From the NCBI GenBank assembly GCA_003116975.1, contig BGKB01000113.1, forward strand, positions 62,001 through 126,000: DNA of 64,000 nucleotides, written 5' to 3'. The DNA is from Aurantiochytrium sp. KH105 (Eukaryota; Sar; Bigyra; Thraustochytrida; Thraustochytriidae). Shown in pieces: positions 21,735-48,515 of the stretch. The position numbers and the translations under genes were made by a program. The notes beneath the pieces were generated by a model that saw only the letters and a list, made by a program, of their open reading frames with translations, had not been told where the DNA came from and did not search any database. Numbering within the stretch: position 1 is the stretch's first letter; the number at the start of each line of letters is the position of its first letter.

Positions 21735-24700
21735 ATGCCTCCAACGGTGGTGTCCAGGGCGCAGAGCCATGTCAGCGGTATGACTGGCATGTCAACGGGT
21801 GGCGACGCTGACATGGACAGTGCTTTTCGCCAGCTCCGCTCGCAAGGCGGCAATGCATCAAGCATCTTTATTGAACTCGAGGCATTCTTTGAGAAAGCCA
21901 AGACTGGTCTTAACAATCTGCTTCATAGCCTTACGCGTACCTCAAAAGAGTCACATCTCATCTTCATGGCAGGCTCACTGATTGAAGCAGGCCAGCTTGC
22001 TTCTTTGGCACTGCCCGCATCATCGACCATGGACATGAACTACCCAACACCTGTTGCAAAGCTTGCTGAAATCATTGGCTACACTCGATTTGGAGATCTC
22101 ATGTGGGAGCACTTTGATCACTTCACCGTAGCCATCGTTATCCAGAGTGTCCTCTTGGTACTTCTCCTTGCTCTCCCCTATATTGCCTACACGTGGGCAA
22201 ACAAGGAGGGAAGATCAATTGGAACCAAGCTTTTGCAGTACCAAATGTCAATTTACGGCGGCATCTTCTTCATCCCGATCATCACCTGCCTTGCAGAAGG
22301 GGCATTTTGCAGCAAATTCGAAGGCAACCAATGCAAGTTTTTCATGCCAATCGCCATCATCGAACTCATCGTGTACATCGTGCTTGTTCTGCTCGTCTCC
22401 ATTATGTATTTTGACTCGAGGCCAGTCTCAAAATCAATGACTTCGCGCCCTCACGCTCGCGTCCATGTACTCAGCGTTTTCATTCGGGCCGTTCTCACCT
22501 TAATCTTCGTCGGGGCTCACAATGTGGAGTCTGGATCGGGCTTAGTCAAGTTCTGGGTTGTAATTGTGGCGGTGTCTTTAACCCTGCTTGGCCTCGGATA
22601 TACATGGTACCAACCGTACTACCACCAGCGCGCCAATGCCATCCGAGCGTTACTCACCATGGCTGCTGCATGGCTTGCCATTTGCTCCATGGTTCATGTC
22701 CTCGCTTCTTCAGTGACGACAACGACATCAACCTCGGCCTCCGGGGAAGAATGTGTCTACACTTCAGACAGTACAGTTACGGTGACCGTGTTTGGCGGAC
22801 TCATTCTCATTCTCCCGCTCACATGGGTGGCACTGCACTATCGTCGATACACGCTTCACATGAAGCGGCCAAACCAGTGCGCCAATGTATTTGAGCTTGA
22901 GCTCAAGGGAAGACTCGAGCTTCAAGGTCTTGGCATCCACCACGTGAGTGACCTCTCCAAAGCGGACAAAGATGTCATGCACGCGCGAGCAATGCGCGTG
23001 CACAAGTGGTACATGGAAGCAGCCTCTCTGTTTCCCCTTTCCGGCAGTCTGTTCATGTTCCACGCTCAAATGCTCCTTGCCTTCCTTCCGAAGAAGACGC
23101 CCATGGTTCGTCGCGCTATCGTCATTGCAGCGAAGAGGGGCCTTGCGCCAGACTTTCATGTCATCGTCTACAAGGTTCGAAGGACCTTGGAAGAGACGAT
23201 CAAGGGCTCTTCGGACGTCTTGAGCATTGTTCGTTCCGAGGAATATACAACGGAAGCGCTCAAGTATGACAAACGCTGCTCGACACAACTCGTCGACTTC
23301 TGGAGCGAACTGTCCGAGAAGCGCCCCGACATCAACAAGGTGAGACGCTTGGCCCTGAACATTGCTGTTTCCTCGGCAGCCGCGCATAAAGCTTATTTGA
23401 AGCTCCTTCGTATCTCACCCAAGTCTTCCCGTGTTTATGACATGGTTTCTTCCTTTCTGCTGGAGATCATGCACGACTCGCGACTGGCGGCGATGATGCG
23501 AATGAAGGGGGGCCGTCTCGCGAGAGAGGCGAGCGTGCGTGCGTCAACCAACTTAAACGAGGCGGAGTCTGACTCCCTTGGTGTTGTCGTCGTGCGTGCG
23601 TCACTCGAGAATAGGCATGAGTTGGGCGACATTATCTTTGCAAATGCAAACGCCAGCCAGATCCTCAATCAGGTGAATCAGATGATTGTCGGACAAAAGA
23701 TCGACTCATTCTTTGTGAGCCCGCTCGCCGAACGTTTCGAGGAGATTGTCGAGAGCTTCATGGAGGACGGAAACGATGAAGCGTTTGAGGACACCATCAA
23801 CACTTTTCTGCGTACACCTACCGGAAATGTGGTGGCGGTGAATCTCAAGTTACAGCCCTACGCTCCGGACGATGTGAACTTCAATATCTACATTGTCTTC
23901 CAAGCTGACACCTCGCACTCTGGAGAGAATTTCATTGTCGTAAACGAGACGGATGGCATGGTGGAAGGTATGGGAAGCGCTTGCTTTGCGGCATTTCAAA
24001 GTCATATTCTCGCTGCATCGCAGCAGCGCCAGTTCCAAAGGATGGGCGGTATGGCCTTTGGAGGCGTTGCAGGCCAAGGCGGCCCAGAGCGCCTTCACGT
24101 GTCGACGCTCATTCCCAACTACTCGATTATCAATCCTCAGCGTCTTCCCTCTGGAATGCCAATTCCTGTAACCTTGCAGGAGGAAGACTCTGGAGTGCAC
24201 TTGCTCAAGCGTTTGCGAATTACCTTCGCCAGCGATGAGCCAAATGCTCAGCGACGCGACTCCTGCGAGGGAGGAGCGCCCGACGCATCCTCGTCGCGTC
24301 CACGACTCGGCCATCGACCGAGCATCGTGTCCCTGCTCGGCGGCGACGATGTCGACAGCACGGGACGCGGTTCGTTCTGCATGCCGGGGGCCGCTCCCGA
24401 AGCGGCTGTCCGCCGCGCCAGTACCGCGCCCGGTGCTTCTGATAACGGCGAAAGCGGAGACGCGACCAAGAAGAGATCCTCGGCGATGTTTTCGCCCATG
24501 CGAAGAATGTCATCCATGTACTCGCCACCGGAGCACGTGAAAGGCAAGATTTGGATTCACCATAAGCAAGTCCTCGGCAAACGATACCTGCAAGTCTTCA
24601 TGCATGACCCAGAAGTTCCAGAGTTCAACACCGTCGATGAGCGTTTCGAAGACCGTGGCGCTACGATGGACGTCGGAGGTCAAAGCGAGTTCGACGATGC

Positions 24701-27020
24701 GTCAATGGGCAACGCCGAGTCAGACTTCGGAACCGATAGCGATGCTAAAGGAAGGAGCGGGGGACCTGGTGGCCCGGTCGGCGGTCTCATTCGCCGCACA
24801 TTCACGGACAAGTCTGAGCACATGCGGCGCTTCATGGAAGAAATGGGCTCCGAAGCAAAGATTGCAACAACTCCCCGCGCACGTACGGGAGGTTCCCGTG
24901 CAGGATCCAAAGCAGGTTCGGTGTCTTCTGGGGAGGTTCTCCGGCACAAAGCACAGGCCGTGCGAAAGACCCTACAAGAGAGCCAGAATGCAGCCATGGA
25001 CTCTACGCTGGCTAAGCTTCGTCGCATGTACCTCCGGGCCTCCATCCTTGTCTGCGTTTGTGCACTTGCACAATACGTCAACAGCACAAACCTTTTGGGG
25101 GAATACAGCAATGATATTCAGCTCGTGGGCTCCCTCGGGTTCCGCCGATTCTGCCTCGTCGCCATCGCGTTCGCGGCGCACGGCCTGAACCTAATCAATC
25201 GCGGGATTCTCGACCCCTCAGAGGAAAGTCATCTACGTTCGGAGCTCGGCACTTTCGGAAATACTTTGAAGAACGCTGACTTTGAGCTTTTCCAGCGAAG
25301 GGCGACTGTCGGAGGCAGCTTGCAGACGACGTACGAGGAACCATCGTTCGACTACTACTTTTTGCGTAATGGTTATGTCATGTCCTCACGTATGAGTCTC
25401 TTCGAAGCTACGATGAAACTCTCGAGTTCGGCTTTACAGGCTGAACAGGCGGACCTCTCCGAGTTCACGCCAGGATCTGCAACAACCCTTCCGCTCATGG
25501 AGAATCTTGATTTTTTCAGCAACTCCACATTAACTGGCTTGGAGCAGACCACTGAGCTATTTGCTGATTACGCATTGCAACACTCAACAGTCATTCTTCA
25601 TCAACTTTTGGTGATGGCAAGTACCATGCTCTTTGTCACAATCATTCTCGTCGGCGTGGCAATCTATCCGCTTGTGGGTAATGGCGGCAAGATCGAGAAG
25701 GTCAAAGGTGAGATTCTGCAAGTCTTTGCGGACATTCCCAAGAAAACCACGCAAGAAGTTGGACTTCGTTTCGTCGAGCGGCTTAGCGTCATCCATGAAG
25801 AAGATGTCGACGCCTCGCGGCTCAATGGCGAGCATCCAGCTACACGCGGTCACGATGAGCTCCGGGAAGCTGGCTTGGACCCACGAACCGCGTCTGGGGC
25901 AGCGGGCGGCATGTTAAGCCACATCACCGATGCGTCGACCCCGCATTCCGATGCGCAGACGCGCGAGCCCAAAAAGGTTGCCAAAGTTGCACCGGAAATT
26001 CCGAACGCAGATCGCTCGAAACCCAGTCCTCGAGCCAAGAAACAAGGCGGAAGCAGCTCGAAAAGCAAGGACGAGCACAAGACGCGTGCCCCTTGCTGCA
26101 CAGTGCGCAAGGCTGTTATCAGTGCGAAAATGAGCTCTTTGCTCTTCCTTGCAATTATCTACTTCGCTTCGGTCGTGCTGCTCACTGCCAAACTTGAATG
26201 GGACACCGAAAGTGCACCAGCAGTGGCAAATTATGCCGGCTATCGACGCATGAAGATGCGGTACGTGATGCACGAGTTCCGTCTTTGGCTGACTGGCGCT
26301 TTTGAAGGCGTCGACATGGTCACCATCGACGGCGAACATATTGACTTCCGCAGCGACACCGATCATGTTCGCCATCGTCTTGCGACCTTGCAAGAAATTC
26401 ACGAGAAACTGCTTTACGGCAAGGAAGCCGACCACATTGTGGGAACATTTCGAGACCCCTCGGCGAGCGACGATCTCATGGAACTTTACACCACGAACGG
26501 GTGCTTGAGCCTGCCGTCAACCTCGAATCGGACCGAGGCCGAATGTCTGGCCTTTGACAATGGCCTCATGGCCACGGGTTTGCAAAGCGCTTTCACGAAC
26601 TTCATCGACGCCATGCAAGAGCTTACTTATGACACGGAGATCGACGCCGCTGCTCATTCAAGAGATGACGCGATCATTCGCACAATCTTTGAGCGAGACG
26701 ACGTACAGCGCCTGATCGAGCTTGAGAAACACTATCTCCAACCGCAGTTTTCTACGGTGATTCAAATCGGTAACACCGATCTCGCGTCTCGCGTCGCGCA
26801 TGTCGAGATCATGATGCTCATTCTGCTCATTGGGCTCATAGTGTGCGCCTTTTGCATCTACGCCTTCGTTGTACGAGCCATCCTCACGCGCCTTGATACG
26901 GAGGTCAAACGCACACGAAGTCTGTTGCTTGTGATACCTGAGGATGTCTTAGATTCACTTCGGCATATCCAGGTCTTCCTCGTCGACTCCTTTGGGACCG
27001 GGAGCACAGGCAAGAAGTAA
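21735..27020 (+). CDS. Tiny macrocysts B (TmcB)-like multipass membrane protein, 1761 aa
   Basis: Paralogue of the 14004-19196 gene with the same order. About eight membrane helices lie between roughly residues 75 and 365 (for example near 135-155 and 200-225). The conserved cytosolic TmcB block is at about 380-600 (LVDFWSELSEKRPDINKVRRLAL; AYLKLLRISPKSSRVYDMVSSF). A PAS-like domain is at about 613-725 (IFANANASQILNQV). A long Ser/Gly/Arg-rich linker follows (about 830-1080), then further membrane helices near 1095-1145, 1285-1310, 1465-1490 and 1695-1720. Between the last helices is a domain with cysteines shared with its paralogue (TNGCLSLP, ECLAFDNG). The start ACAATGCC is clear. Its 3' end is 148 bp from the 3' end of the fused CNG-type channel. 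Function is unknown beyond a likely membrane-sensor role. Confidence 0.87.
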   Translation: MPPTVVSRAQSHVSGMTGMSTGGDADMDSAFRQLRSQGGNASSIFIELEAFFEKAKTGLNNLLHSLTRTSKESHLIFMAGSLIEAGQLASLALPASSTMDMNYPTPVAKLAEIIGYTRFGDLMWEHFDHFTVAIVIQSVLLVLLLALPYIAYTWANKEGRSIGTKLLQYQMSIYGGIFFIPIITCLAEGAFCSKFEGNQCKFFMPIAIIELIVYIVLVLLVSIMYFDSRPVSKSMTSRPHARVHVLSVFIRAVLTLIFVGAHNVESGSGLVKFWVVIVAVSLTLLGLGYTWYQPYYHQRANAIRALLTMAAAWLAICSMVHVLASSVTTTTSTSASGEECVYTSDSTVTVTVFGGLILILPLTWVALHYRRYTLHMKRPNQCANVFELELKGRLELQGLGIHHVSDLSKADKDVMHARAMRVHKWYMEAASLFPLSGSLFMFHAQMLLAFLPKKTPMVRRAIVIAAKRGLAPDFHVIVYKVRRTLEETIKGSSDVLSIVRSEEYTTEALKYDKRCSTQLVDFWSELSEKRPDINKVRRLALNIAVSSAAAHKAYLKLLRISPKSSRVYDMVSSFLLEIMHDSRLAAMMRMKGGRLAREASVRASTNLNEAESDSLGVVVVRASLENRHELGDIIFANANASQILNQVNQMIVGQKIDSFFVSPLAERFEEIVESFMEDGNDEAFEDTINTFLRTPTGNVVAVNLKLQPYAPDDVNFNIYIVFQADTSHSGENFIVVNETDGMVEGMGSACFAAFQSHILAASQQRQFQRMGGMAFGGVAGQGGPERLHVSTLIPNYSIINPQRLPSGMPIPVTLQEEDSGVHLLKRLRITFASDEPNAQRRDSCEGGAPDASSSRPRLGHRPSIVSLLGGDDVDSTGRGSFCMPGAAPEAAVRRASTAPGASDNGESGDATKKRSSAMFSPMRRMSSMYSPPEHVKGKIWIHHKQVLGKRYLQVFMHDPEVPEFNTVDERFEDRGATMDVGGQSEFDDASMGNAESDFGTDSDAKGRSGGPGGPVGGLIRRTFTDKSEHMRRFMEEMGSEAKIATTPRARTGGSRAGSKAGSVSSGEVLRHKAQAVRKTLQESQNAAMDSTLAKLRRMYLRASILVCVCALAQYVNSTNLLGEYSNDIQLVGSLGFRRFCLVAIAFAAHGLNLINRGILDPSEESHLRSELGTFGNTLKNADFELFQRRATVGGSLQTTYEEPSFDYYFLRNGYVMSSRMSLFEATMKLSSSALQAEQADLSEFTPGSATTLPLMENLDFFSNSTLTGLEQTTELFADYALQHSTVILHQLLVMASTMLFVTIILVGVAIYPLVGNGGKIEKVKGEILQVFADIPKKTTQEVGLRFVERLSVIHEEDVDASRLNGEHPATRGHDELREAGLDPRTASGAAGGMLSHITDASTPHSDAQTREPKKVAKVAPEIPNADRSKPSPRAKKQGGSSSKSKDEHKTRAPCCTVRKAVISAKMSSLLFLAIIYFASVVLLTAKLEWDTESAPAVANYAGYRRMKMRYVMHEFRLWLTGAFEGVDMVTIDGEHIDFRSDTDHVRHRLATLQEIHEKLLYGKEADHIVGTFRDPSASDDLMELYTTNGCLSLPSTSNRTEAECLAFDNGLMATGLQSAFTNFIDAMQELTYDTEIDAAAHSRDDAIIRTIFERDDVQRLIELEKHYLQPQFSTVIQIGNTDLASRVAHVEIMMLILLIGLIVCAFCIYAFVVRAILTRLDTEVKRTRSLLLVIPEDVLDSLRHIQVFLVDSFGTGSTGKK

Positions 27021-27168: not shown

Positions 27169-30100
27169 TTATTTTAGAAGAAATTCGGTCTGTCGACGTT
27201 CTAGGTGCTGCGGAGAAAGCACTGGCAGGGCGTCCAGAGCAAACAAAGAATCGCCAGTTTGGCGCGTGTACGCGAGGAAGTCCTGGGCATCTTCATAAGT
27301 GAAGCTACCGCGCTGAATTGTTGCGACCATGTTGCCCTTTCGCGTGCCGCGGAAGACTGTTGCTCGTCGTTCCGTCACGTTATTGTCCTTGAGATATTTT
27401 GCGAGCTGCTCTGAAGTCTTGGAGAGCTGTCGAGTCGCCAAGAATTGTTGATCCCGCTCTTCAATGGTCCTCCTGCGACCCTCGCGCGGTTCGACCCAAT
27501 CAGGTCCTTTCTTGGAGCCCGACTTCTGACTGGAGACCGACTTTTCACTGAAGCTGCGCAACGAGGTCGCACCGGAACTCCCATCCTTGTCCACTTCCTT
27601 GAGAATATTGGTTCCGAGGGGCTTGGCCACCGTCGCAAAGGACTTGCGCGACTTGGGGTTGTGCAGTATGGTGTCGTCTTGAAGCTGCGACTGAATGAGC
27701 GTGTGCTGGATAGAAGTAAGCCTCGGATGCTCCCTCAGCATCTTGGTATTGGGGTTACCGAGAATATTGGCAATGTGACGGGCCGAGAAGCGGCCAAGAG
27801 GGGTCTGCACGCTCCCGGCGATTTCAGCAACCTGACGATGCAGCTCCTTGGATTGTTTCATCGTTCTTCGCTCGGGATGCACAAGCTCAGCAAAGATGCC
27901 GATGCTTCGGTGCTCAGGAAATTCTACCATGATGCGCTCGAACTCGTCTTTGGGGATGAAGGCGAGCTCGCAGGCTTCTGTACATTGAACGGTCATCGTT
28001 CGCTCCCCGCTTAAAGAATACAGGCACTCACCGCCAAAGTGATGTCCCGCACGGAGCATGTAGGATCCTTTCTTTCGAACGCTCATGTGCGAGGGCATGG
28101 TGCTGAGATTTCTCTGGCTCTGAGAGAGTGCCTTCTCGGTCGAAGTAACCTCAAGTTCCCCAGATCGGATAAAGTAGATGTCGTGACCAATCTCTCCCTC
28201 GCGAAAGACGTATTCTCCCTTGCTACAGATTTGCATTCGCAGCTTTCGCGCGATGTGACGCTGCACGTGAATATGACATTTGCGTAAGCCGCGAACTTTG
28301 TCCATAATGTCATGGTGAATGCACATGGCCAGCTCCAGCTGCAGAGGGAGCGGGAGACCGACAATAACATCGTGCATATCTACGCCTTCAAAGCGCTCCC
28401 AGTGATTCGTAAAATGATCGATGATCTCGCGCTGGAGCCCGCCTGGAAGCTCTCGGAATGCCATAAAATCCAAAAGCTTGCGAAGTCGGTTCTTGAAAGA
28501 GATCTCGCCCCGAGAGTCCCAGTGCAAGAAGACCACCGCGACTGATCCAATGAGTGCTGCGAACGTGCAGGCCCCGAGAACGACGACAACCAGCTCGTGA
28601 ATTGTCTCGACCAAGGTGTATGGGCGAATATCGCCATATCCAACACTCGACATGGTTGTCACAGTGAAGTAGAGGGCGCGCAGATAGACGAAGCTTGGAT
28701 TCAGATCCTCGTTGAAAATATTGTGAGAGCCAGCAGCCTCTGGATCGTCTGACTCTGTGATGAACTGAGCCAATCCATCGGCGATGGCCCAGGTCTTGTG
28801 CAAATCCGATTCCACATAGCGATGCAAGATGAACCAGGTGCAAGCTGCCCAGTGATTGAGAAGAAGCATGCCGGTGAAGAGAAAAATGACGGAAATCACG
28901 CTGGAGTTAATTCGCGGGAAGAGCTCGTGAATGTACTTGTCGAGCAGCTTGGAGTAGCCGTGCACACGAAGCAGGCGCAGAAGGTGCAGGAATCGCACCG
29001 CTGAGAGAAGCGTGATGTGCGAATCGTTGTTTCCAGAGAGAAAGGCGGCCCATGCAAAAATGTCGGCAGGAAATGAGGCCGCGAGGTCGTAGAACAGCCA
29101 CGTGTTCCAGTAGTGTTCTGCAATGAGAGTCTCATTCGTAATGACTTTTCCATACCTGTTAATGGCGAATCGCTTGTACCGCATGAAAATGTCAACCATG
29201 AAGAATATGTCGATGCAGTACTCGAAGCCAAACCAAATGATCACACCCCACGTCATCTTGTGATCCATTAATGGCGGACGGCCGTCTGCAAAGAAGGCGA
29301 AGCGGAATGGAATGGAAAACGCAAAGTACATGGTGAAGAACAGGGAAGCCATGTTCCAGACGCGGCAAAATGTCTCATTTGGCCTGTAAATCCTGGCTTT
29401 CTTGGCAGCCGCTTTCTGGCGCTTCTTGCGCATTCGCGAGTCGCTTACGAGGTGGTGCGAGAGCTTTGGGACGGGTTTGCCATCTATACCGTACTTCTTA
29501 TTCGCCACTGCCGGAGTCGGCCCGGCTGAGCGGAGGCTCGAATACATGAGAGACTTGTAAAGCGTGCTGCCAAAGCCGTTCGTGCGGTTTGACGGGCTCA
29601 TAGGCGGTGACTTTGGGGACTGGGGGGACTTTGGGGTTGTCGGCGCAGACCCTGCGCCAGCTGCGTATACTCTGGAGCCTGTTGCTATACCGAGGGGCCC
29701 TGTCTTGAGAAAGGACGCCCGCTTGGTTAGCATTCGTCGCCCGTAATCGAGAATGGAGCCTGCAGAGAATGAGGGTCGCTTCTCGGACATAAAGTCAAGC
29801 ATCTTGGATCCGGCAATAATGGCCTCCATATTCGTGCGAAGATTGTCATTGCGAAGCTGATTGTTCTCGCGCAGCTCGGAGACGACGCTGAACATACGAT
29901 CAGCCTGGTGCGGATAGCGGAGCAGAACCTCATCCAGATCCTCTCGATGCAAGGCAAAAAGCTCGGTGAAGTCCAGTGCTCGCGCAGAGCAGCTGCGACG
30001 CTCGTTGAAGAACACTGCAGTCTCGCCAAAGTAAGCACCGGCGTCGAGGCTTGCGAGAACGATGATCTCTTCCTCGCCGATCTGACCCTCTATGGCAATT

Positions 30101-33100
30101 AGACTGGCGCGCTTCGTGCTGTGCGCCCCACTCCGCAAAGAAGATAGGGACGGCTGCTTAACGACGCCAATGCCTGGACCTCCGGCTGGCGACTGGGACC
30201 CGTTTGACTTGATCCGTTCGGATAGAATTCTGCTGTTAAGCGAACGGTTGCTCTGGTTAACGCCGCCCGGGCTACCAGGGTCAACGGCGACACTGCTGGC
30301 ACGGTGACCACTTCGCCAATTGCCCCGAAAGGATACCATCTGAACAGTTCCTTGCTCGATAAAGTACATTTCAGTACCAACGTCACCCTCGTAGATGATA
30401 AAGTCATGCGGCGAATACACTTCGGACTTGAGTTTTGCGGCAATTCCTTTGGAAAGGGCGGTGTCGCAAAATTCAAAAAAGGGCGTGTGAATTACGAACT
30501 TCAACTTGAGGTAGTTGGAGACCTCGGCTCGCAAGGTGGCGGGCATTTGGTCGACCAAGTTTGCCTGGACAGCATCTTTTTCGGTCTCCCATAGATACTC
30601 GAGATAATTGCGAGTGCGCTGCTGCAGGGACTGAGGGACCTGGTACATGTAGAGGAAACGTTCGAATGTGTCCATCTTCTCACGATATTTGGCGGCGCTG
30701 CCCTCTAGGTTGGCCACCAGGTTGGCAATACTGCCAATGATTGCAGCATTGATAGTCACTCCAATAATGATCATGATGGTCACGTACAAGGTGCCAGGGA
30801 TATCGACTGGAATCGTGTCCCCAATAACAACGACAACGAGCGTGGGGAGGGCCCAGTTCATCGCACGAAGGTACCGATGGTCTAGCGATCCACCGTCGAG
30901 AGGCAGCAAGCCCATTTCCATTTGATTTTGGATCCAGGTCTGGTTCCAGCGACAGTGGGCCTCGAATGTGGCACCGCAGGTCAGGTCAGAATTGGTCAGC
31001 GGCCAGTTGTCCTTCATTGTAAAGAAGGTCTCCTCAGGACAGCTATCCGCTGAGTATTTGATGATGTCATCGTTGCCAAGTTCGGCTGCTAGGCGATCCA
31101 CACATTCCGCAATGGCGTCATCATCGGACTGCTCGTAGTATGCAATGGCGTAAAAGAAACAGCCAGTCCAGTGCGAGATGGCAATCACTGCGACGACGAG
31201 TAGAAAGAGCCGATACATGGCTCCGTAGTCACGAAAGCGAGACATGCTGAAAAGTGTGTCGAGGTTTGCCTTCAATTTCGGAACACGCAGCACGAGCAAG
31301 AGCTTGGGGATTCGACAGCATGCCATTGCGAGCGCGAGATTCCGCGAAAAGTCTTCCGACTCAGGATTGATGAAAAGTGAAATCAGAGCCAATACATCAA
31401 ATGGAAGTGTTGTGAGCACGTCTCGTCGCAGAACCCCGCCCCGAAAGTAGTTGGAACGAATATCATCCCTGTCAGTGAAAACCTGGCCGCCGTCGAGGAA
31501 GCCAAAGTACTTGTACCGGCAATAGACATCAATGGCGAGGAAAACATCGAGCGTGTAATCGACCGCGAAAAGGGTGAGGCCAGCATTCAGCGCGAGACGA
31601 ACAGGGACGGTCGCAAAGTTGTACAGGATAGCCAGGAGAATGGCCACGTCCCATGCGCGGCGCAATCCGGACTCTGGATGTCTCCACGATGTCTCTGGCA
31701 CAGTCTTGCGCTCCTCGTACTCGTAACTTGTAATGACGGCCAGTTTGGAGTAGCGATCCATGTTCTCAATAATTGCGGCGTTCTTGAGCCGCTTTTCTTG
31801 CAGCGTTGCGCGCAGACGCATGAGCACAAGTTCTCGCTGCTGGGGAAATTCACGCGTGACGCGGTCAAAGTCCTCCTTGTTAAGCACGAAACAGTCACAG
31901 TAGCCAATTGCGATGACATTGGCGGTGCGCTTCTCGAGGCCGAGAAGAGATCCTTCTCCAAAGTAGTCGCCCGGGGTGAGTACTGCGTAGGTCAGCTTGC
32001 CATTTGCCGAAGTGACGCGCGTGGCCCCCTTTTCAAGCAGAAACATGTCCTGACCGAGCTCTCCAGCCGTGATGATGAAGTCCCCGGGGAGAAAGACGGA
32101 AGGTTGAAGCACACTGAGCAAGTGGCGGAGAAGCTCCTGGTCGATGTCCTGCAGAAAGGTGATGTTCCGCATGATGGAGCCGTTGATATACTCTTGGACC
32201 TCCATCCGCAAGGAGTTGGGCAAGTCGTGAAGAATAGAGTCTTCGTCGACGCCACGCTGGCGTGACCAAAGGTAGTCGTAGTAGCGCATGATTCTGACCC
32301 GCAGGGGGCGCGGGAACTTTTTCACGGCCATGTACTGCGTGAGCACGGCGAGCTTGTTCTGGAACTCCGTACGCGCCGTGTCGAGACTCGAAATCAGAGC
32401 GGCCATGGCACCTACTACAGCAGGATATCCGAGGCCTCCGATGAAGGTAATGAAGGCCACGTATGCAGTCTCACGCGTGTTATAGGGTACCAAGTCGCCG
32501 TACCCCACGGTGGTCATGTCTACGAGGACGAAGTAAATAGCGCGCAGGTAGGTAACGCCCGGCTGCGTGTGGTCAATATTTGCCCAGTTTGCATGATCTT
32601 TGCAAACCCAGTCATCATCAGTTTGTGCGCAGTTGGCACGGTCAAGATATGCATGTCTCTCGTCCTTTCTGAGACCTCCATGGTGCCAAGATATGAGAGA
32701 CATGACCATCCATCCGCAGCCCACCACGTGCACACACCAGATGACCCAGAAGAAAATTTTGACAATGCGATGTAGGCCGTTGGAGAGCGTAATACGCCGC
32801 GCGGCCATGTAGGTTTGCGCGGTGTCATAATGGCTCATCAGGTACTCGATGCGCAAAATCTTGTTGAGCCGCAAGATGGGAAGCCATGTCACTTCGTAGA
32901 CGGCAATTAGGTCAAGCGGCATGATTACAATGAGATCGGTAATCCATGGTTCGATGCGCTTGTACCTCTGGAAGATGCGCTCGCCGTCGCGAACGACAAC
33001 GCCCTCTTGCACAAAGCCAAAGAAGCGGGCGCGAAAGATAACGTCGATGATAAAGAAACAGTCGAGGAACCAGTCGACAACAAAGTGCCCCGGTCGCACG

Positions 33101-34860
33101 TCACCAGCGAAAAGATACGTCTGCGTTGCCAGGCGGTACGGCCCGATCATGGACATGTATGCGACACCAAAGAAGTTGAGAGCATTCCAGATCTCGCGGA
33201 AGCGGGATCTTGGCTCGAGAATGTCGCGCCAGGATTTCGACTTTGCGGTATTTGTGTCGAGACCAAAAAACTTCTTCACCTTGGCGCTACGTTTGGCGGC
33301 CTTTTCTGCTGCCATTCGGATCTCTTCGAATTCTTCCTCCTCGAGCGACTCGGCCATGATGTCCTCGAAAAGCTCTTTCTTCAAGAAAAAGAATTCGCAG
33401 TAGCTCTTGGCGCGGATGGAGTTCTCAAAATTTCCCGGAATGAAAAGTGACATTTCTCCCATAAAGCTGCCTAGCTTGCCGCTCAACTGCGCGAGCACTG
33501 CGCCCCCGGGTGAGATAATTTCGGCCTCGCCGCGGCGTAGCCAGTAGCATCCGGGCATGTTCTGACCTGCTCGCGCCACGTAGTCTCCTGGTGACACGAT
33601 GACCTGTTCAAGTGCCACGCAAATGGAGTTGATGACGGGATTTCGTAACTTGCGCAAAAAGTGAACTTGTGTGACCAGGTCCTTGGACCGCAATCCAGCG
33701 ACCTGGAGCTGCAGCGTAATGGGAAGGTCGCGCAGGAACTTTGCTTCGTTGACACCTTTAAGACTCGTCCACATGTACGTGTAGTAGGCACGAATACGGT
33801 CACGCAGGTCTGTCGACAGGTGCCGATATGCCATGTACTTGTTCATGTTGTCCATTTTGGTATGGAATTCATCCTCGTCGGCATCAAGGTTGGCGACCAT
33901 GTTTGTCAAGTTGCCAATCACCAAGCAAGTAAGCGTCATGCCTGTATACATGGTAATGAGCGTGAACGAAGTTTCCACCCCTGAGTTCGAGGCGGGGACA
34001 ACGTCGCCAAGACCTACAGTGACCATGGTGATGATTGCCCAGTAGATGCTTCGAACATAAGCATGGATTGTGGGTTCATCGAGATCAACGCTTGATGTTG
34101 TGGCGTTGTAGTGCAAGAGCCCGTCGGCTTGAGCCCAGCTCTGATGAGGTTCCTGGCGCACCGCTGAGAACGCCACTGCAAAAAAACCGCATGCAAACCA
34201 GTGCGCGAAGAAGAAAAAGACTGCCCACAGCAGGATCATGCGACGCATGCCTGCATTGACAATGAGACGTCTTCTCTCGAGCATGAGAAAGATGACGTTC
34301 GACTGTTCCTCGACATGCAAAAGGCGCAGAAACTTGATTAGACGAAGCGCAAGAGCAATGTCCTTGTTGGCATCAGGATTCGCGGCGTACACAATGTAGT
34401 CGAGAGGCATCGCACAGATGATGCTCGTGACCAGAAAGATCAAGTTTGAGACCTTTTTCCGATACTGTTCGTGACTGGTCATGCGCTCTTCGCGCTGTCG
34501 CTCGTGCGTGGAGCTTAGGACAAGCTCAGCTTCGGGCATGACGATGGAGCTTAGTCTTGGGTCGAATTTCGAGCGAAAAATAAATCGCTGCATCAATAGG
34601 TCAAGGATCAGAAGCAAATCTGCTGCGATGTCACCAACCAGAAAGAGATAGAGAAGGAAGTCGTACTCGGCTTGCTTTTCTGCACTCGCATTGCGAAAGG
34701 CTTCATCGTCTTGCGAGACGCTCCCGTACCCCGGAAAAAATGATAGTCGAAAGGGCACCATAAAACAGTTCCATGAGAGAGCGAGAATTTGTAGACCTTC
34801 CCACGTTGGCCTTGAGGGCGCATAGCGATGCAGCAGCGCAAGCAGTTTGCGTTTCGCCAT
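27169..34860 (-). CDS. Four-domain cyclic-nucleotide-gated-type cation channel, 2563 aa
   Basis: One uninterrupted frame encodes four consecutive units, each with six membrane helices, a pore loop and a C-terminal cyclic-nucleotide-binding-like (CNBD) fold. Pore filters read GLGD (283-286), GYGD (786-789), VIGD (1345-1348) and GYGD (2074-2077). CNBDs lie at about 415-500, 915-1010, 1480-1690 and 2214-2330. Unit 2 has the canonical phosphate-cassette signature FGEGSLL...RTA (from 967). Unit 3 carries a Ser/Gly-rich insertion of about 80 residues inside its CNBD. Units 1 and 4 are diverged in the cassette. A Ser/Pro-rich linker (about 1700-1835) separates units 3 and 4, and the last 230 residues are a polar tail. 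One chain could therefore form a complete pseudo-tetrameric pore, as in the sea urchin sperm tetraKCNG channel. Probable location: plasma or ciliary membrane. K+ selectivity and ligand response are inferred, not shown. Confidence 0.92.
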   Translation of the reverse strand: MAKRKLLALLHRYAPSRPTWEGLQILALSWNCFMVPFRLSFFPGYGSVSQDDEAFRNASAEKQAEYDFLLYLFLVGDIAADLLLILDLLMQRFIFRSKFDPRLSSIVMPEAELVLSSTHERQREERMTSHEQYRKKVSNLIFLVTSIICAMPLDYIVYAANPDANKDIALALRLIKFLRLLHVEEQSNVIFLMLERRRLIVNAGMRRMILLWAVFFFFAHWFACGFFAVAFSAVRQEPHQSWAQADGLLHYNATTSSVDLDEPTIHAYVRSIYWAIITMVTVGLGDVVPASNSGVETSFTLITMYTGMTLTCLVIGNLTNMVANLDADEDEFHTKMDNMNKYMAYRHLSTDLRDRIRAYYTYMWTSLKGVNEAKFLRDLPITLQLQVAGLRSKDLVTQVHFLRKLRNPVINSICVALEQVIVSPGDYVARAGQNMPGCYWLRRGEAEIISPGGAVLAQLSGKLGSFMGEMSLFIPGNFENSIRAKSYCEFFFLKKELFEDIMAESLEEEEFEEIRMAAEKAAKRSAKVKKFFGLDTNTAKSKSWRDILEPRSRFREIWNALNFFGVAYMSMIGPYRLATQTYLFAGDVRPGHFVVDWFLDCFFIIDVIFRARFFGFVQEGVVVRDGERIFQRYKRIEPWITDLIVIMPLDLIAVYEVTWLPILRLNKILRIEYLMSHYDTAQTYMAARRITLSNGLHRIVKIFFWVIWCVHVVGCGWMVMSLISWHHGGLRKDERHAYLDRANCAQTDDDWVCKDHANWANIDHTQPGVTYLRAIYFVLVDMTTVGYGDLVPYNTRETAYVAFITFIGGLGYPAVVGAMAALISSLDTARTEFQNKLAVLTQYMAVKKFPRPLRVRIMRYYDYLWSRQRGVDEDSILHDLPNSLRMEVQEYINGSIMRNITFLQDIDQELLRHLLSVLQPSVFLPGDFIITAGELGQDMFLLEKGATRVTSANGKLTYAVLTPGDYFGEGSLLGLEKRTANVIAIGYCDCFVLNKEDFDRVTREFPQQRELVLMRLRATLQEKRLKNAAIIENMDRYSKLAVITSYEYEERKTVPETSWRHPESGLRRAWDVAILLAILYNFATVPVRLALNAGLTLFAVDYTLDVFLAIDVYCRYKYFGFLDGGQVFTDRDDIRSNYFRGGVLRRDVLTTLPFDVLALISLFINPESEDFSRNLALAMACCRIPKLLLVLRVPKLKANLDTLFSMSRFRDYGAMYRLFLLVVAVIAISHWTGCFFYAIAYYEQSDDDAIAECVDRLAAELGNDDIIKYSADSCPEETFFTMKDNWPLTNSDLTCGATFEAHCRWNQTWIQNQMEMGLLPLDGGSLDHRYLRAMNWALPTLVVVVIGDTIPVDIPGTLYVTIMIIIGVTINAAIIGSIANLVANLEGSAAKYREKMDTFERFLYMYQVPQSLQQRTRNYLEYLWETEKDAVQANLVDQMPATLRAEVSNYLKLKFVIHTPFFEFCDTALSKGIAAKLKSEVYSPHDFIIYEGDVGTEMYFIEQGTVQMVSFRGNWRSGHRASSVAVDPGSPGGVNQSNRSLNSRILSERIKSNGSQSPAGGPGIGVVKQPSLSSLRSGAHSTKRASLIAIEGQIGEEEIIVLASLDAGAYFGETAVFFNERRSCSARALDFTELFALHREDLDEVLLRYPHQADRMFSVVSELRENNQLRNDNLRTNMEAIIAGSKMLDFMSEKRPSFSAGSILDYGRRMLTKRASFLKTGPLGIATGSRVYAAGAGSAPTTPKSPQSPKSPPMSPSNRTNGFGSTLYKSLMYSSLRSAGPTPAVANKKYGIDGKPVPKLSHHLVSDSRMRKKRQKAAAKKARIYRPNETFCRVWNMASLFFTMYFAFSIPFRFAFFADGRPPLMDHKMTWGVIIWFGFEYCIDIFFMVDIFMRYKRFAINRYGKVITNETLIAEHYWNTWLFYDLAASFPADIFAWAAFLSGNNDSHITLLSAVRFLHLLRLLRVHGYSKLLDKYIHELFPRINSSVISVIFLFTGMLLLNHWAACTWFILHRYVESDLHKTWAIADGLAQFITESDDPEAAGSHNIFNEDLNPSFVYLRALYFTVTTMSSVGYGDIRPYTLVETIHELVVVVLGACTFAALIGSVAVVFLHWDSRGEISFKNRLRKLLDFMAFRELPGGLQREIIDHFTNHWERFEGVDMHDVIVGLPLPLQLELAMCIHHDIMDKVRGLRKCHIHVQRHIARKLRMQICSKGEYVFREGEIGHDIYFIRSGELEVTSTEKALSQSQRNLSTMPSHMSVRKKGSYMLRAGHHFGGECLYSLSGERTMTVQCTEACELAFIPKDEFERIMVEFPEHRSIGIFAELVHPERRTMKQSKELHRQVAEIAGSVQTPLGRFSARHIANILGNPNTKMLREHPRLTSIQHTLIQSQLQDDTILHNPKSRKSFATVAKPLGTNILKEVDKDGSSGATSLRSFSEKSVSSQKSGSKKGPDWVEPREGRRRTIEERDQQFLATRQLSKTSEQLAKYLKDNNVTERRATVFRGTRKGNMVATIQRGSFTYEDAQDFLAYTRQTGDSLFALDALPVLSPQHLERRQTEFLLK

Positions 34861-38590: not shown

Positions 38591-41500
38591 TTACCGCAAA
38601 GATGTACAGGTGCAGGTGCAGTCCGAAACAGGGCAGCAAACGTGCTCCAGAAACCATTCGGTCATGCATGAGGCATGGCCACCATGACGACATCTGAGAC
38701 ACCACGAGAACCAGCGACCAAAGGGCTGCGCGGTGCCTGCAGGAACAAAATCATTTGACACCGAAGCTCCTCCCTTGCCTTCGCCTTTCTTTGAGGCGCT
38801 CTTGTGCCTGCCTCGTCCATGAGAAGCAGCATCGCGCGGATGCTTCTCCATGATTCGCGCAAAACGCTCACGCTCACGGTGCGTTGTGCCCATCATTTGC
38901 GCGTACGGATTTATGCAACTCATGGGCAATACACAAACCGCGCATGACGAGAGCCGCTTTTTACAGTGCGGACAGCAAGGGATGGTCAGCTTGCGGTCGT
39001 TGAGGCGGGACGACCCGCTGAGCATGCTGGCATCCGGAATAACCTCGTGAAGGAGAAGAGACTTTTTGCAATGCGTGCATACTGCGTAGACTTGCGGATC
39101 CTGCGCCGCGCGCGAGCGCATTGACGCCAAAGCATCGCCCGCCATATCCTCGGGAACCCGACTTGGACCGTTGCTTGAAACATGATCAACATGGCGCGCT
39201 TCATCGAGAGCGCGCGTCGAGGGCGGAGGTGATGAGGGGGTGGCGGGCGCCTCATCCTTTTCGCGATGCGCCTTGAGTTTGCGCTCTCGAGCTGCGAAAC
39301 GCACATCGAAGCGCGCGCGCTCTTGCCAAAGCTGCCAAACATTGAGCAGGTCGCGATACGAAGAGATCCACCATGCGATGCGCGTCGCATCGCGAACAGA
39401 CAGTTCATCTGGAATCGTGTGACAGGATACGAGAGCAGCAGTCTGAACGTCGCCAGAGTGATCAACGTATGCCTGCAGCAATTGCATGCCGCGATCTCCC
39501 AAGCCCGTGAGAACAATTCCATCAAGATGTCCATGCTCGATCGCGTGGTCGCAATTTTCGCGCAAAAAAGTGTAGAGCTTTTGATCGGGAAGGAACCGGC
39601 AGGCAAACGCAATGCGATCCGTGAGCGCAATGCGCGATTCCTTGAGAACGCAACTGAACTCGATCTCCGACGAGGGCAAAAAGACATCCTGCATACCCGA
39701 AGAACCGACGTCGTCGCTGCCATTCGCATGAGACTTGTTTGAGGCCGCGGTATTTAAGTCGCTGATAGAAGCGTTGTTGCTCGCCCCACTGCCAATGCTG
39801 AGCTTTCCCGAGGACTTGGTCGGTGACGCGAGGGCGTGCTCTACTGATGCGCCAGCTTCGGCCTCCGCTTCGTCCTCGGGGATGCCCGCAAGGCCAGAAC
39901 TTGATGTCGTCGAGATCTGGCCCGATGGCATAATGCTTGTGACGGCACTTGATACAGAAAATCCATCGTCCAGCCGCGTTCCTGACGAGTCGTTTGCCGA
40001 CAACGACGAGTTATCCAGCGCTTCGATCCTCGAAAGGTCCCGACGATGCTGCACGCGTTGCTCGTAATTCTCAACGAGAAATGCAAGAGCGGCTCGCAAG
40101 ACAGGAAAGCTATCGAGGCGCGTGAGCAGACCACTACAACGGTCCACCCATAAAGATGAGTTTCCGCTTTCAGCCCCGGGGTAACCCGCCAGCGCCATGG
40201 CAACCAGCTCGAGAAGATCCGCAATGAGTTCCTCGTCAGTGCTGCGAAAGGGATCGCGGTGTACTTCGAAGCAAGGGTTTCCGGCGCCAAGAGAGATGGG
40301 GCCATTTGAGGACGCACGATGGGCGCGACGGCGATGGCGAAGGTCAGTCGCAGCCTTTTGCAGGATTTGCACCGCTGAGGTTAGATTGCAATCAAAGATT
40401 GCGAGTGCGGCCAAACGCTGATAGTCGCGGTCGTTGCCAACAACGCCAAAGCGCGTGTCCGTGGAAACACTCATGGAGCCACTGTGACCCTCCTTTTCTT
40501 CAAGATCTCGCCAACCACAAAGTCGCAGCGCCGTGTTGCGCGAATTGCTGAGATACAGAGAAAACCGGGGCTTAGAGGTGGTGTCAACGCGCGTTCCATC
40601 CTGCGCACCCGCGCGGTTTGCGAGGATAGAAATCAGGCCGGCGTCGACGAGGCCTTTGGCTCGCGTAGGGTCCATTCGACGCGAGGCACGCTCGACCCAG
40701 CGCCACATGTCGCGCAGGCGAACGAGGTCGGCAAGACAGGAGGTTGGGTCGCTTGGGTCCACCATAGTATAAAATTCTTCATCAAACCCCTTGGGCGACT
40801 GCGGGGCCCCATTGGAGAGGCGTTTGGCAGCGGCGATCGTTCGCTCTAGCAGCTTGGTGTTCGCATCTGCGTCAATGGCGTAACCGAGCCTTGCGCGTGT
40901 GCGAAGAATTAGCGACGGGTCTCGCTGCGGAAAGGGAAGCTGAGAAGGTACGAGTGCCCCACCAAAGCTGAGCATTGACTGTGGAGACACGGAGATGGGC
41001 AACGGATTCTGCAGCGAAAGGTCGTCAGGAGTTCCATTTTTGCTCGAGACAAAGAGAATGCGATTGGCACTCAAGGCAAAACGACGCTTATCCAAGGCAT
41101 TCGAAGGATCCGCCGACCCGTTGGCGATGCCAAGGCCTGCCCTTGAAGCTACAGATGTCGCCAAGGGGCCAGCATTGCCAAGAGGCACATTCGGACCGAC
41201 AGCTGCTGAAGCGCCGGGGACACCAGCCACAGGATTGCGCGGACCCCCCGTAGAATTGGGATGGGCGCCTTTGACAGGAATCCAGCAAAAGCTGGCAATC
41301 CGATCGCTTGTGTAACGACGCACATCTGACCTCGTGATCTCCTTTGTTGAAAGCTTCTTCTTCGTGTCCGTTTCGCGCTTCTTTGCAGAAAGTATAGACT
41401 CTTTGTCTTCAAGCGCAGCGGCAGCTGACAAGTCGTCGCTGCCACGCGCGGCTGCTGGCGGGGGCGGCGGCGGGGGCGGCAAGTCATCGTTGTGGTTCTC

Positions 41501-42793
41501 AAAGGAGCTGTCAGACCCAGAATCGGAGCTGTCCACGGCTTTGTCGACATCGTAGAGGCTAATAAAACGCTCGTCTGCAGTGGCACAGGCCAAGAGACCT
41601 GAACGAACTGGAGACCACGCAATTTGCATAATGTCCCTGGACACTGCGTGGATGATGGCGATCGGTTCGTCCAGTCGACGCAGATCCCAGGCCTTGACGA
41701 AGGGATCGATTTCTGAAAAAGTAGCCAGACGGTCAGGACGGCATGGATCGAAGGCAATTCCGCTTACAATCTTGGTGTGTGCTACGACAGCTGGAGGGTT
41801 TTGGGATTCTGCGTCGCGCACATCATAGAGACGCAACCATCCGTGACCAGCCCCGACGGCAATGCACGACTCTTTGTCTGGCGCCCATGCAAGCGAGAAC
41901 GTTGGCTCTGCATAGCAGCTTTGAAAAATGGGGCGTAGGTTCGGCGGGGGCCGCGATCGGCCTTTTAGATGCGAATACACAATCTTGTTCTCCTCGGGCG
42001 CGCTGGCGAGCTCGCGCGCCACCTGCAAGGTGTCGTACAAGGCAAGACTCTTTTCCGCTCGTGTTTTTTCGACAGCAACGGCGAGGTTGCCGGGCTTTGA
42101 TGGTTGCCAGCTCAGAGCATTACAGTGTCTATTCTGCACGGCACCTGGCGAGATTTCGTAGACCACGCCGCTGCCTTCGGTGTTAATGCCGTCTTGGAGA
42201 CTCACGAGCCGCACAGTACCGGAACTATCGCCTGTGGCGATGAGCAGAGGGTCAAAGGGCCCGGGGTACCAGCTCAAACAGCGGATAGGGCGCGCCATCG
42301 TTCTCATGGCCACGAACGAGTGCTTGAGTTTCCACCGTACAGCGGATTCTGCGCCAGAAGTGTTGACGTTGGCCTGTGACTGCACAGGCGCATTCGCGCT
42401 GCTGCCTGGAGCGTTCCATGATGCGATCTGTCCGGAGGCTACGCTGCCTGCGCTGACGCGTCTTGCATGGCCCCTGAGCTGTTGTTGTGGTTGCTGAGAT
42501 TGTTGTTGCTGTTGCTGTTGTTGCATGTGCTGTTGAATGAGAAACTGCTGTTGGTGTTTTTGCACGACAGCGCTCTCTGGTTGCCCGCTCGAGTCCGCCG
42601 GTACACTCTCGTACAGCTTGAGGTCCAGCGACTGGGTCACCACGAAGTGGCTCGAGTCGTGCGGCGACCACTCCATGACCGGGGTCGACGGCTTGATCTT
42701 GCCGCCGCCGCCACCGCCGATCCCTGCGCCGGAGCCCCGGCCGCTCCTGCGGGGCACGCCGCCGCCGCGCGCCTCCATGTACCCCGTCTGCAT
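38591..42793 (-). CDS. MIOS: GATOR2 complex subunit MIOS (Mio/Sea4), 1400 aa
   Basis: Part of the GATOR2/SEACAT complex that relays amino-acid sufficiency to TORC1 at the lysosome. The N-terminus carries WD40-type blades (CLSWYPG...GDSSGTVRLVSL; SLAWAPDKESCIAVGAGHGWLRLYD; GIAFDPCRPDRLATFSE; QIAWSPVRSGLLACATAD). The middle is helical solenoid. The C-terminus is the MIOS zinc-binding end with paired cysteines and HGGHASCMTEWFLEH, finishing CPVSDCTCTC, very close to animal MIOS. It is about 60% longer than human MIOS because of Gln-rich (about 70-105), Pro-rich and Ser-rich insertions. The frame is open to 43117, but upstream residues are repeat-encoded (His/Tyr/Thr and Gly/Arg/Gln). I chose the ATG at 42793; the ATG at 42778 is also possible. 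Confidence 0.9.
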   Translation of the reverse strand: MQTGYMEARGGGVPRRSGRGSGAGIGGGGGGKIKPSTPVMEWSPHDSSHFVVTQSLDLKLYESVPADSSGQPESAVVQKHQQQFLIQQHMQQQQQQQQSQQPQQQLRGHARRVSAGSVASGQIASWNAPGSSANAPVQSQANVNTSGAESAVRWKLKHSFVAMRTMARPIRCLSWYPGPFDPLLIATGDSSGTVRLVSLQDGINTEGSGVVYEISPGAVQNRHCNALSWQPSKPGNLAVAVEKTRAEKSLALYDTLQVARELASAPEENKIVYSHLKGRSRPPPNLRPIFQSCYAEPTFSLAWAPDKESCIAVGAGHGWLRLYDVRDAESQNPPAVVAHTKIVSGIAFDPCRPDRLATFSEIDPFVKAWDLRRLDEPIAIIHAVSRDIMQIAWSPVRSGLLACATADERFISLYDVDKAVDSSDSGSDSSFENHNDDLPPPPPPPPAAARGSDDLSAAAALEDKESILSAKKRETDTKKKLSTKEITRSDVRRYTSDRIASFCWIPVKGAHPNSTGGPRNPVAGVPGASAAVGPNVPLGNAGPLATSVASRAGLGIANGSADPSNALDKRRFALSANRILFVSSKNGTPDDLSLQNPLPISVSPQSMLSFGGALVPSQLPFPQRDPSLILRTRARLGYAIDADANTKLLERTIAAAKRLSNGAPQSPKGFDEEFYTMVDPSDPTSCLADLVRLRDMWRWVERASRRMDPTRAKGLVDAGLISILANRAGAQDGTRVDTTSKPRFSLYLSNSRNTALRLCGWRDLEEKEGHSGSMSVSTDTRFGVVGNDRDYQRLAALAIFDCNLTSAVQILQKAATDLRHRRRAHRASSNGPISLGAGNPCFEVHRDPFRSTDEELIADLLELVAMALAGYPGAESGNSSLWVDRCSGLLTRLDSFPVLRAALAFLVENYEQRVQHRRDLSRIEALDNSSLSANDSSGTRLDDGFSVSSAVTSIMPSGQISTTSSSGLAGIPEDEAEAEAGASVEHALASPTKSSGKLSIGSGASNNASISDLNTAASNKSHANGSDDVGSSGMQDVFLPSSEIEFSCVLKESRIALTDRIAFACRFLPDQKLYTFLRENCDHAIEHGHLDGIVLTGLGDRGMQLLQAYVDHSGDVQTAALVSCHTIPDELSVRDATRIAWWISSYRDLLNVWQLWQERARFDVRFAARERKLKAHREKDEAPATPSSPPPSTRALDEARHVDHVSSNGPSRVPEDMAGDALASMRSRAAQDPQVYAVCTHCKKSLLLHEVIPDASMLSGSSRLNDRKLTIPCCPHCKKRLSSCAVCVLPMSCINPYAQMMGTTHRERERFARIMEKHPRDAASHGRGRHKSASKKGEGKGGASVSNDFVPAGTAQPFGRWFSWCLRCRHGGHASCMTEWFLEHVCCPVSDCTCTCTSLR

Positions 42794-42894
42794 GCCCGCC
42801 ACCGCGGCCCCGCGCGCGCGAACCCGGTACGAGTGTATGTATGTATGTATGTACGTATAGGCTCTGCACGCTCGCTCTCCAGGCGTATCTTCGC

Positions 42895-42895
42895 G

Positions 42896-42927
<32 letters not shown>

Positions 42928-42930
42928 CCC
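42895..42930. repeat. (GCCT)n tetranucleotide repeat
   Basis: About eight tandem GCCT units between two divergent genes. Confidence 0.9.
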
Positions 42931-43069
42931 GCCCGCCAGGCGAAAACGGGTTCCGCAGGGCGCAGGCGCGGGCAAAGAGACCTAAGGGCGCGGCTCCGGG
43001 ATAGACCGCTTGGGCCTCTGGCGCCGCGCAAGATCGCCGCGGCAACTCCCGCGAGAAGAGAAGCAACAA

Positions 43070-43114
43070 GCAGAGCGAGCAGAGCGAGCAGAGCAAGCAG
43101 AGCAAGCAGAGCAG
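43070..43114. repeat. 9-bp tandem repeat GCAGAGCRA
   Basis: Five tandem units GCAGAGCGA/GCAGAGCAA/GCAGAGCAG in the 5' leader of the EF-hand gene. Confidence 0.85.
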
Positions 43115-43275
43115 CAACGCAGAGCAAACGGAGCAGCGAAGACGCGAGGCGAGGAACCCGGCGAGCCCAGGGCGCAGACCGGCTGGCCGCGGTGGAGCCT
43201 GCGGCCGAGCCCGCGGTGGAGCCCGGGACCGCCCTGTCTGCTCTGCGCGCAGGAAGCGGCCTCGCGGCGCCGAGG

Positions 43276-48117: not shown

Positions 48118-48515
48118 TGTTCGCATCATCATGTTCGCAGGGGAAAGGTTACTTTTGGTGAAAGAAACTGGGATGGAAAATGGAATCGCTCCTCTTTGAT
48201 TGGTGACTGCGTAAAGAAAAAAGGTAGAATACGGTTCTTATTTTTATTGCCCCCCATGGCGAGGCGACCTTCCTCACAAAGGGAAAACAGGAAGATGGAA
48301 GAATGAGAGGGAGGTGCCGTCGTACGTCGTGCCTGGGAGGACCCTTTCACTCTCTCCACTGTGATATCTTTGAATGCTGGCGCCTCCTATGCACGACAGG
48401 GCTATTCTTGTTTTAGTATGCCACTTTCAGAATATGGTCTAGCAGTGGATTCATTATCGTGTGCAGATACAAGAATTTTTCCCTCTGGTGGTTGCACAAG
48501 CAGCAATCTTGCATC
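48118..48515. other. Region between EF-hand gene and transposase gene
   Basis: About 400 bp, less GC-rich than the neighbouring genes. If the downstream gene is a DNA transposon, its left terminus should lie here. I could not find a convincing inverted-repeat partner for the downstream side. Confidence 0.4.

Follow-up and report, generated by a model that had tools for sequence, protein, structure and literature searches.

A candidate four-repeat CNBD channel with an unusual selectivity filter, most likely from a labyrinthulomycete

In this study, we identified, in a window of 64,000 nucleotides (the whole stretch of DNA analysed), a gene that encodes a four-repeat CNBD channel with an unusual selectivity filter (protein A, Table 1), most likely in a lineage without an earlier report of such a channel. 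The first-pass annotation had proposed that four complete CNG-type units are fused in this chain, and both the profile search and the alignment by unit bear this out. Within the 2563-aa frame, the Pfam search gives four stretches of Ion_trans (E 7e-53) and five of cNMP_binding (E 7e-57); a fifth stretch of the latter is expected if one match is split by the CNBD 3 insert. In the alignment, the order of 6TM core with pore, C-linker and CNBD, which is the hallmark of CNBD channels, is seen in each of four complete units, so that the alternative outcome of fewer than four 6TM units did not occur. All four units match solved CNG, KCNH and SthK channels in sequence comparison, and the predicted models of units 1 and 3 match CNG, SthK and HCN structures, with an rmsd of about 15–18 Å over the whole of unit 3, a comparison that says more about the domains than about how they are arranged. 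On the plus strand, 27169–34860 is not open.

Table 1 Features of protein A (positions in the window) and tandem CNBD channels at other loci of the genome
Feature	Location	Strand	Remarks
Protein A, four-repeat CNBD channel	27169..34860	-	one open frame, 2563 aa; second allele on contig C104; pN/pS 0.068
Unit 1 (aa 1-530)	33271..34860	-	6TM, pore, C-linker, CNBD; position of the phosphate-binding-cassette (PBC) Arg is Phe478 in alignment
Unit 1 filter TVGLGD (aa 281-286)	34003..34020	-	unit alignment
Unit 2 (aa 540-1050)	31711..33243	-	6TM, pore, C-linker, CNBD with canonical FGE...KRT phosphate-binding cassette
Unit 2 filter TVGYGD (aa 784-789)	32494..32511	-	unit alignment
Unit 3 (aa 1060-1665)	29866..31683	-	6TM, pore, C-linker, CNBD (FGE...RRS) broken by insert
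Unit 3 filter VVVIGD (aa 1343-1348)	30817..30834	-	TVGYGD expected; identical in both alleles
Insert in CNBD 3, about 85 aa (aa about 1515-1600)	30061..30318	-	low model confidence; pN/pS 0.20
Long linker, units 3 to 4 (aa 1666-1814)	29419..29865	-	pN/pS 0.20
Unit 4 (aa 1815-2330)	27871..29418	-	6TM, pore, C-linker, CNBD (FGGE...ERT)
Unit 4 filter SVGYGD (aa 2072-2077)	28630..28647	-	unit alignment
C-terminal tail (aa 2331-2563)	27172..27870	-	no Pfam domain listed; pN/pS 0.22, highest among regions compared
B, four-repeat	contigs C33/C110; L010 87-7775	-	2562 aa; C-terminal RGS; filters TVGYGG/TTGFGD/AVGFGD/TIGFGN
C, four-repeat	contigs C59/C214; L012		2360 aa; filters TVGYGD/TVGYGD/TVGFGD/TIGYGD
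D, four-repeat	contigs C49/C90; L014 1251-9830	+	2859 aa; C-terminal RGS; filters TVGYGD in all four units
E, two-repeat	contigs C64/C40; L023 1319-6409, second allele L024	+	1696 aa; filters AVGYGD/TVGYGD

The channel gene stands beside two large divergent TmcB-TPR frames of 1730 aa (14004–19196, minus strand) and 1761 aa (21735–27020, plus strand), the second of which has a weak PAS match and ends 148 bases from the channel stop in convergent orientation. On its other side, a 1758-aa frame with several EF-hand family matches (42841–48117, plus strand) overlaps at its start an opposite-strand MIOS-matching frame (38591–43117), and a 1816-aa frame (48459–53909, plus strand) has DUF6729 as its sole Pfam match at E 0.001.

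The 76-Mb genome, in 367 contigs, seems to comprise two haplotypes, and most of the family matches listed come in pairs. The second allele of protein A is 98% identical, full length and open. Over 2563 codons, the alleles differ by 200.5 synonymous and 45.5 nonsynonymous changes, corresponding to divergences of 11.3% and 0.8%, respectively. Two open alleles under such strong purifying selection indicate that protein A is a real, selected frame. That adjoining genes or an assembly join were read as one frame is therefore highly improbable: the two alleles, at about 11% synonymous difference, both stay open over more than 2560 codons, three other loci show the same arrangement of four repeats, and the units, at a pairwise identity of 22–27%, are not a recent tandem copy. 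The same genome does contain a gene that seems to have been cut by the assembly. A PfaA-like PUFA synthase scores 930 bits over model positions 6–1035 on C72 (311448–315046) and 930 bits on C155; a second match on C72 (positions 1366–1457) ends 134 bases before the contig end, and positions 1287–2567 start at base 32 of C61 (32–2791), with a like pair on C290. The C72 and C61 matches appear to be one gene, broken at what we take to be tandem ACP repeats. As PfaA-type synthases mark labyrinthulomycetes among eukaryotes, this gene points to a protist of that group, most likely a thraustochytrid, a placement that we take as likely; a conserved 18S pattern gave no match in the genome. All these pieces score below the family cut-off (1010.1 bits), and matches were also obtained in 11 of 14 control prokaryote genomes, none of them above the cut-off.

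Constraint extends over the whole channel core. The pN/pS ratios of the 6TM regions are 0.076, 0.040, 0.056 and 0.000 for units 1 to 4, and those of the CNBD parts are 0.016–0.078, apart from the CNBD 3 insert. With 28 synonymous to 5 nonsynonymous differences in its 6TM region, unit 3 is about as constrained as the neighbouring units. In codons 1261–1440, which cover its pore, S6 and C-linker, 20 differences are synonymous and no amino acid is substituted; the alleles differ in length by a single Gln, which the second allele has in addition at about aa 1288, ahead of the unit 3 pore helix. In pore and S6 together, the alleles differ by no amino acid in units 2, 3 and 4 and by three in unit 1. 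The 21 codons around the unit 3 filter show no allele difference at all, synonymous ones included, so the filter is identical and a local constraint on it is not separable.

The selectivity filters divide the units into two kinds. Two canonical filters (units 2 and 4) and two odd ones (units 1 and 3) are read in the alignment, as the first-pass annotation had stated. Its further claim, that VIGD in unit 3 takes the Tyr/Gly carbonyl positions, holds as to an altered loop, and the change proved wider: ungapped, VVVIGD swaps three residues (Val for Thr, Val for the first Gly and Ile for Tyr). Judged by sequence, the GLGD of unit 1 is a mild filter change and the VVVIGD of unit 3 a strong alteration. 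GYG or GFG is present in 25 of the 27 CNBD-channel pores compared, a hand-picked set, and the two exceptions are units 1 and 3 of protein A. A CNG-type gap in the unit 3 filter (two residues, HMMER against CNGA3) was also considered and placed second to the ungapped VVVIGD, because the distance from the pore-helix aromatic to S6 is, by eye, as long in unit 3 as in unit 2.

The first filter glycine is near-universal in K+ channels, and with Val in its place in unit 3 the pore may be a poor conductor or fail to conduct. A K+ channel can lose conduction through defects in a single subunit, and one loop of four carries Val for this Gly in protein A; the protein could thus conduct little or nothing and serve as a cyclic-nucleotide sensor, a scaffold or a silencing partner. 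We regard this as quite unlikely, given the strong purifying selection on the 6TM region of every unit, the pore and S6 segments of units 2, 3 and 4 being free of amino-acid changes between alleles (three in unit 1), and the canonical filters retained in units 2 and 4. Both alleles carry VVVIGD although the gene is strongly constrained, which suggests that the asymmetry serves a use and is not a sign of decay.

The architecture is not confined to protein A. At least three further four-repeat CNBD channels (B, C and D), each with a second allele, and one two-repeat protein (E) were found in the genome; the genome-wide counts are lower bounds, as scores cover 150 of the 199 candidates for Ion_trans and 150 of the 279 for CNBD. 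B, C and D are 20–33% identical to protein A where aligned. Pfam finds four Ion_trans stretches in each of them and one, three and two cNMP_binding stretches, respectively; their remaining CNBDs, placed by unit alignment, are apparently degenerate. All 12 loops of B, C and D keep GYG or GFG, which indicates that the architecture forms a family here and that the odd filter is special to protein A. This bears on the possibility of an ordinary K+-selective pore of the CNGK kind, in which three good loops hold the filter and the unit 3 loop is tolerated. Two canonical loops and one near-canonical loop would suit such a pore, and CNGK, a K+-selective channel of four repeats, offers a precedent (PMC4749565); nevertheless, three of the five TVGYG residues are replaced in unit 3, in both alleles, and the 12 unaltered sister loops suggest a change specific to protein A, and we consider this explanation unlikely.

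An RGS domain ends B (E 1e-14) and D (E 2e-6), above the Pfam cut-off and in both alleles of each. These RGS-tailed proteins may provide a direct link from G-protein signalling to a one-chain channel. Pairing of CNBD and RGS is a recurring theme in the genome: three frames of 483–663 aa (C7:29987–31504, C70:221100–222212 and C33:268344–269279) carry two or three CNBD matches and an RGS match, and are absent among the Ion_trans matches listed. No report of CNBD channel-RGS fusions was found in a search of titles and abstract openings that covered few subscription papers and preprints. Among the other loci, L025 (C98:127500–135500), whose 1632-aa frame includes a TVGYG pore loop, lies outside the 27-pore comparison, and frames such as those on C85 and C184 carry four Ion_trans matches with no CNBD among the matches listed and may be Nav/Cav-like. 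A pattern scan of the genome-contig collection with unit 2 gave 19 matches and zero relatives, and a search of viral contigs with the whole of protein A gave zero matches.

Phylogenetic analysis was based on 27 units drawn by hand from 40 loci (L009–L048): four from protein A, 12 from B, C and D, two from E, and nine from single-unit loci (L029–L036 and L047). Second alleles and L048 (a weak match without a recognisable filter) were omitted, as were L037–L046, L016–L022 and L025–L028, which were not taken for CNBD channels on the matches listed; the second allele of D was left out of the selection analysis as its piece (L015) is incomplete at one end. In two trees, B3 pairs with D3 (support 94 and 96/97), B4 with D4 (94 and 97/79) and B1 with D1 (69 and 89/92), the last two being flagged as long-branch joins, and B2 and D2 do not pair. 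Pairing at three of four positions suggests that the four-repeat layout predates the split of B and D. E1 and E2 are sisters (support 100) and group with the single-unit L029, L031, L032 and L033 in both trees, so that E looks like an independent two-fold fusion of single-unit channels. The grouping of L030 with L035 is likewise supported in both trees. The repeats of A and C are placed in neither. In the more careful tree, no single branch separates the 16 four-repeat units from the rest, but constraining them to stay together is not rejected (AU p 0.354). Also not rejected are the four units of A as one clade (p 0.318) and the position-1 units (p 0.156) and position-3 units (p 0.246) as clades. 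The CNGK-type grouping of repeats 1 with 3 and 2 with 4 is neither recovered nor rejected (AU p 0.359 and 0.322).

Each unit of protein A shares fold and sequence with SthK, CNGA1/CNGA3, HCN, KCNH and plant AKT1/GORK, channels that have one unit per chain and four chains per channel. Nav and Cav channels have four 6TM repeats per chain and an asymmetric filter but no CNBD, and the CNBDs in the units of protein A set it apart from them. The two-repeat tandem CNBD channels of the SAR supergroup resemble protein A in their fused CNBD units, diverged repeats and lineage; they have two repeats with TVGYG or close variants, whereas protein A has four repeats.

The closest precedent for four units in one chain, already named in the first-pass annotation, is CNGK/tetraKCNG (ApCNGK of sea urchin, DrCNGK of zebrafish and SrCNGK of a choanoflagellate), which shares with protein A the four 6TM-CNBD repeats and, in part, GYGD-type filters. 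In PMC4749565, CNGK pores are described as K+-selective, of four repeats and carrying GYG or GFG; ApCNGK is opened by a single cGMP at the third CNBD, and in DrCNGK the Arg of repeat 2 is replaced by Ala and the C-linker of repeat 3 contains an insert of 42 aa. The CNBD without the ligand Arg is thus that of repeat 2 in DrCNGK and that of unit 1 in protein A, and the repeat 3 insert lies in the C-linker in DrCNGK and inside the CNBD in protein A. While CNGK filters are reported to be canonical, those of protein A are so in units 2 and 4 only (two of four). Four-repeat CNBD channels are known from animals and choanoflagellates, and a eukaryote survey did not identify tandem channels among the labyrinthulomycetes (PMC7576140), the group from which protein A most likely comes. 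In male gametes of a brown alga, a stramenopile, K+ channels have been called similar to TetraKCNG, the available part of the paper leaving the repeat number unstated (PMC3879662); beyond it, titles and abstract openings, covering few subscription papers and preprints, yielded no report of four-repeat CNBD channels in stramenopiles.

Protein A was not filed as a CNGK because the canonical filter is confined to two of its units and because the trees cover units of its own genome. It might still be a true CNGK, either older than the split of animals and SAR or transferred between lineages, as opposed to an independent four-fold fusion. The shared plan of four 6TM-CNBD repeats (PMC7576140) and the TetraKCNG-like channels of brown-alga gametes, whose repeat number is unstated in the part of PMC3879662 at hand, speak for such an origin; two filters that are neither GYG nor GFG and the survey result for labyrinthulomycetes (PMC7576140) speak against it, and we consider it unlikely. 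Trees built from units of the same genome leave the repeats of protein A unplaced.

The ligand-binding residues vary among the units. In the alignment, CNBDs 2 and 3 of protein A retain FGE as well as the phosphate-binding-cassette Arg. CNBD 4 keeps the Arg, and also the Glu if one extra Gly in the cassette is allowed, the Glu standing off the aligned column; in CNBD 1, Phe occupies the position of the ligand Arg. Because of the insert in CNBD 3 and the extra Gly in CNBD 4, three working CNBDs are an upper estimate. Protein A nonetheless keeps the most ligand residues of the four-repeat proteins A–D: the aligned-column Arg is present in three of the 12 units of B, C and D (B1, D1 and D4), and Glu and Arg together in two of them (B1 and D1). 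The S4 segments of protein A contain three to five R/K each, as against one to five across A–D and three to six in E and the single-unit channels, and we infer that they form a weak voltage sensor. CNBD channels have a short S4-S5 linker of under ten residues (PMC7576140).

Taking these sequence features together, we lean slightly towards protein A being a one-chain, cyclic-nucleotide-gated, K+-preferring channel with asymmetric and probably relaxed selectivity. The protein would supply all four pore-lining units and fold as a pseudo-tetramer, so that the architecture implies a fixed stoichiometry. If the units follow in order round the pore, the altered loops 1 and 3 would face each other; the filter would then depart from the usual four-fold symmetry, and one of four canonical ligand sets would be missing from the inner K+ sites. 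K+ may still be preferred, or K+ and Na+ may both pass with lower selectivity. Cyclic nucleotide, presumably bound at CNBDs 2, 3 and 4, where Glu and Arg are kept, would open the channel, with CNBD 1 lacking the Arg. The ligand could come from the class III cyclases of the genome, in which 37 Guanylate_cyc matches were counted, alleles and double domains apart. The top cyclase matches are two frames of 1216 aa, each containing a pair of class III cyclase domains (C138:48133–50832 and C69:244026–246725). A pathway like that of sperm, in which a Na+/H+ exchanger carries a CNBD, was considered and set aside: none of the 20 exchanger matches lies in a frame among the CNBD matches listed.

A more specific form of this proposal is put forward tentatively. 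The K+-type loops of units 2 and 4 would oppose each other and, at right angles, GLG would face VVVIGDTIP, a loop that has departed from the K+ signature, giving a cyclic-nucleotide-gated, mixed-filter pore of intermediate cation selectivity; protein A would belong to a family of at least four deeply diverged four-repeat labyrinthulomycete channels, two of them with RGS domains, and the joining of four CNBD units in one chain would have begun outside the animals or before them. In an alternative register, VVVIGDTIP resembles the animal CNG filter TIGETPP. We know of no one-chain precedent for a mixed-filter pore of intermediate selectivity.

Four such loci in a labyrinthulomycete would carry the four-repeat architecture to a very distant lineage and make its origin testable. 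Since four units in one chain can each be altered alone, protein A also offers a system for determining the number of good filter loops that a K+ channel requires, and it is suited to asking what effect one broken filter loop has.
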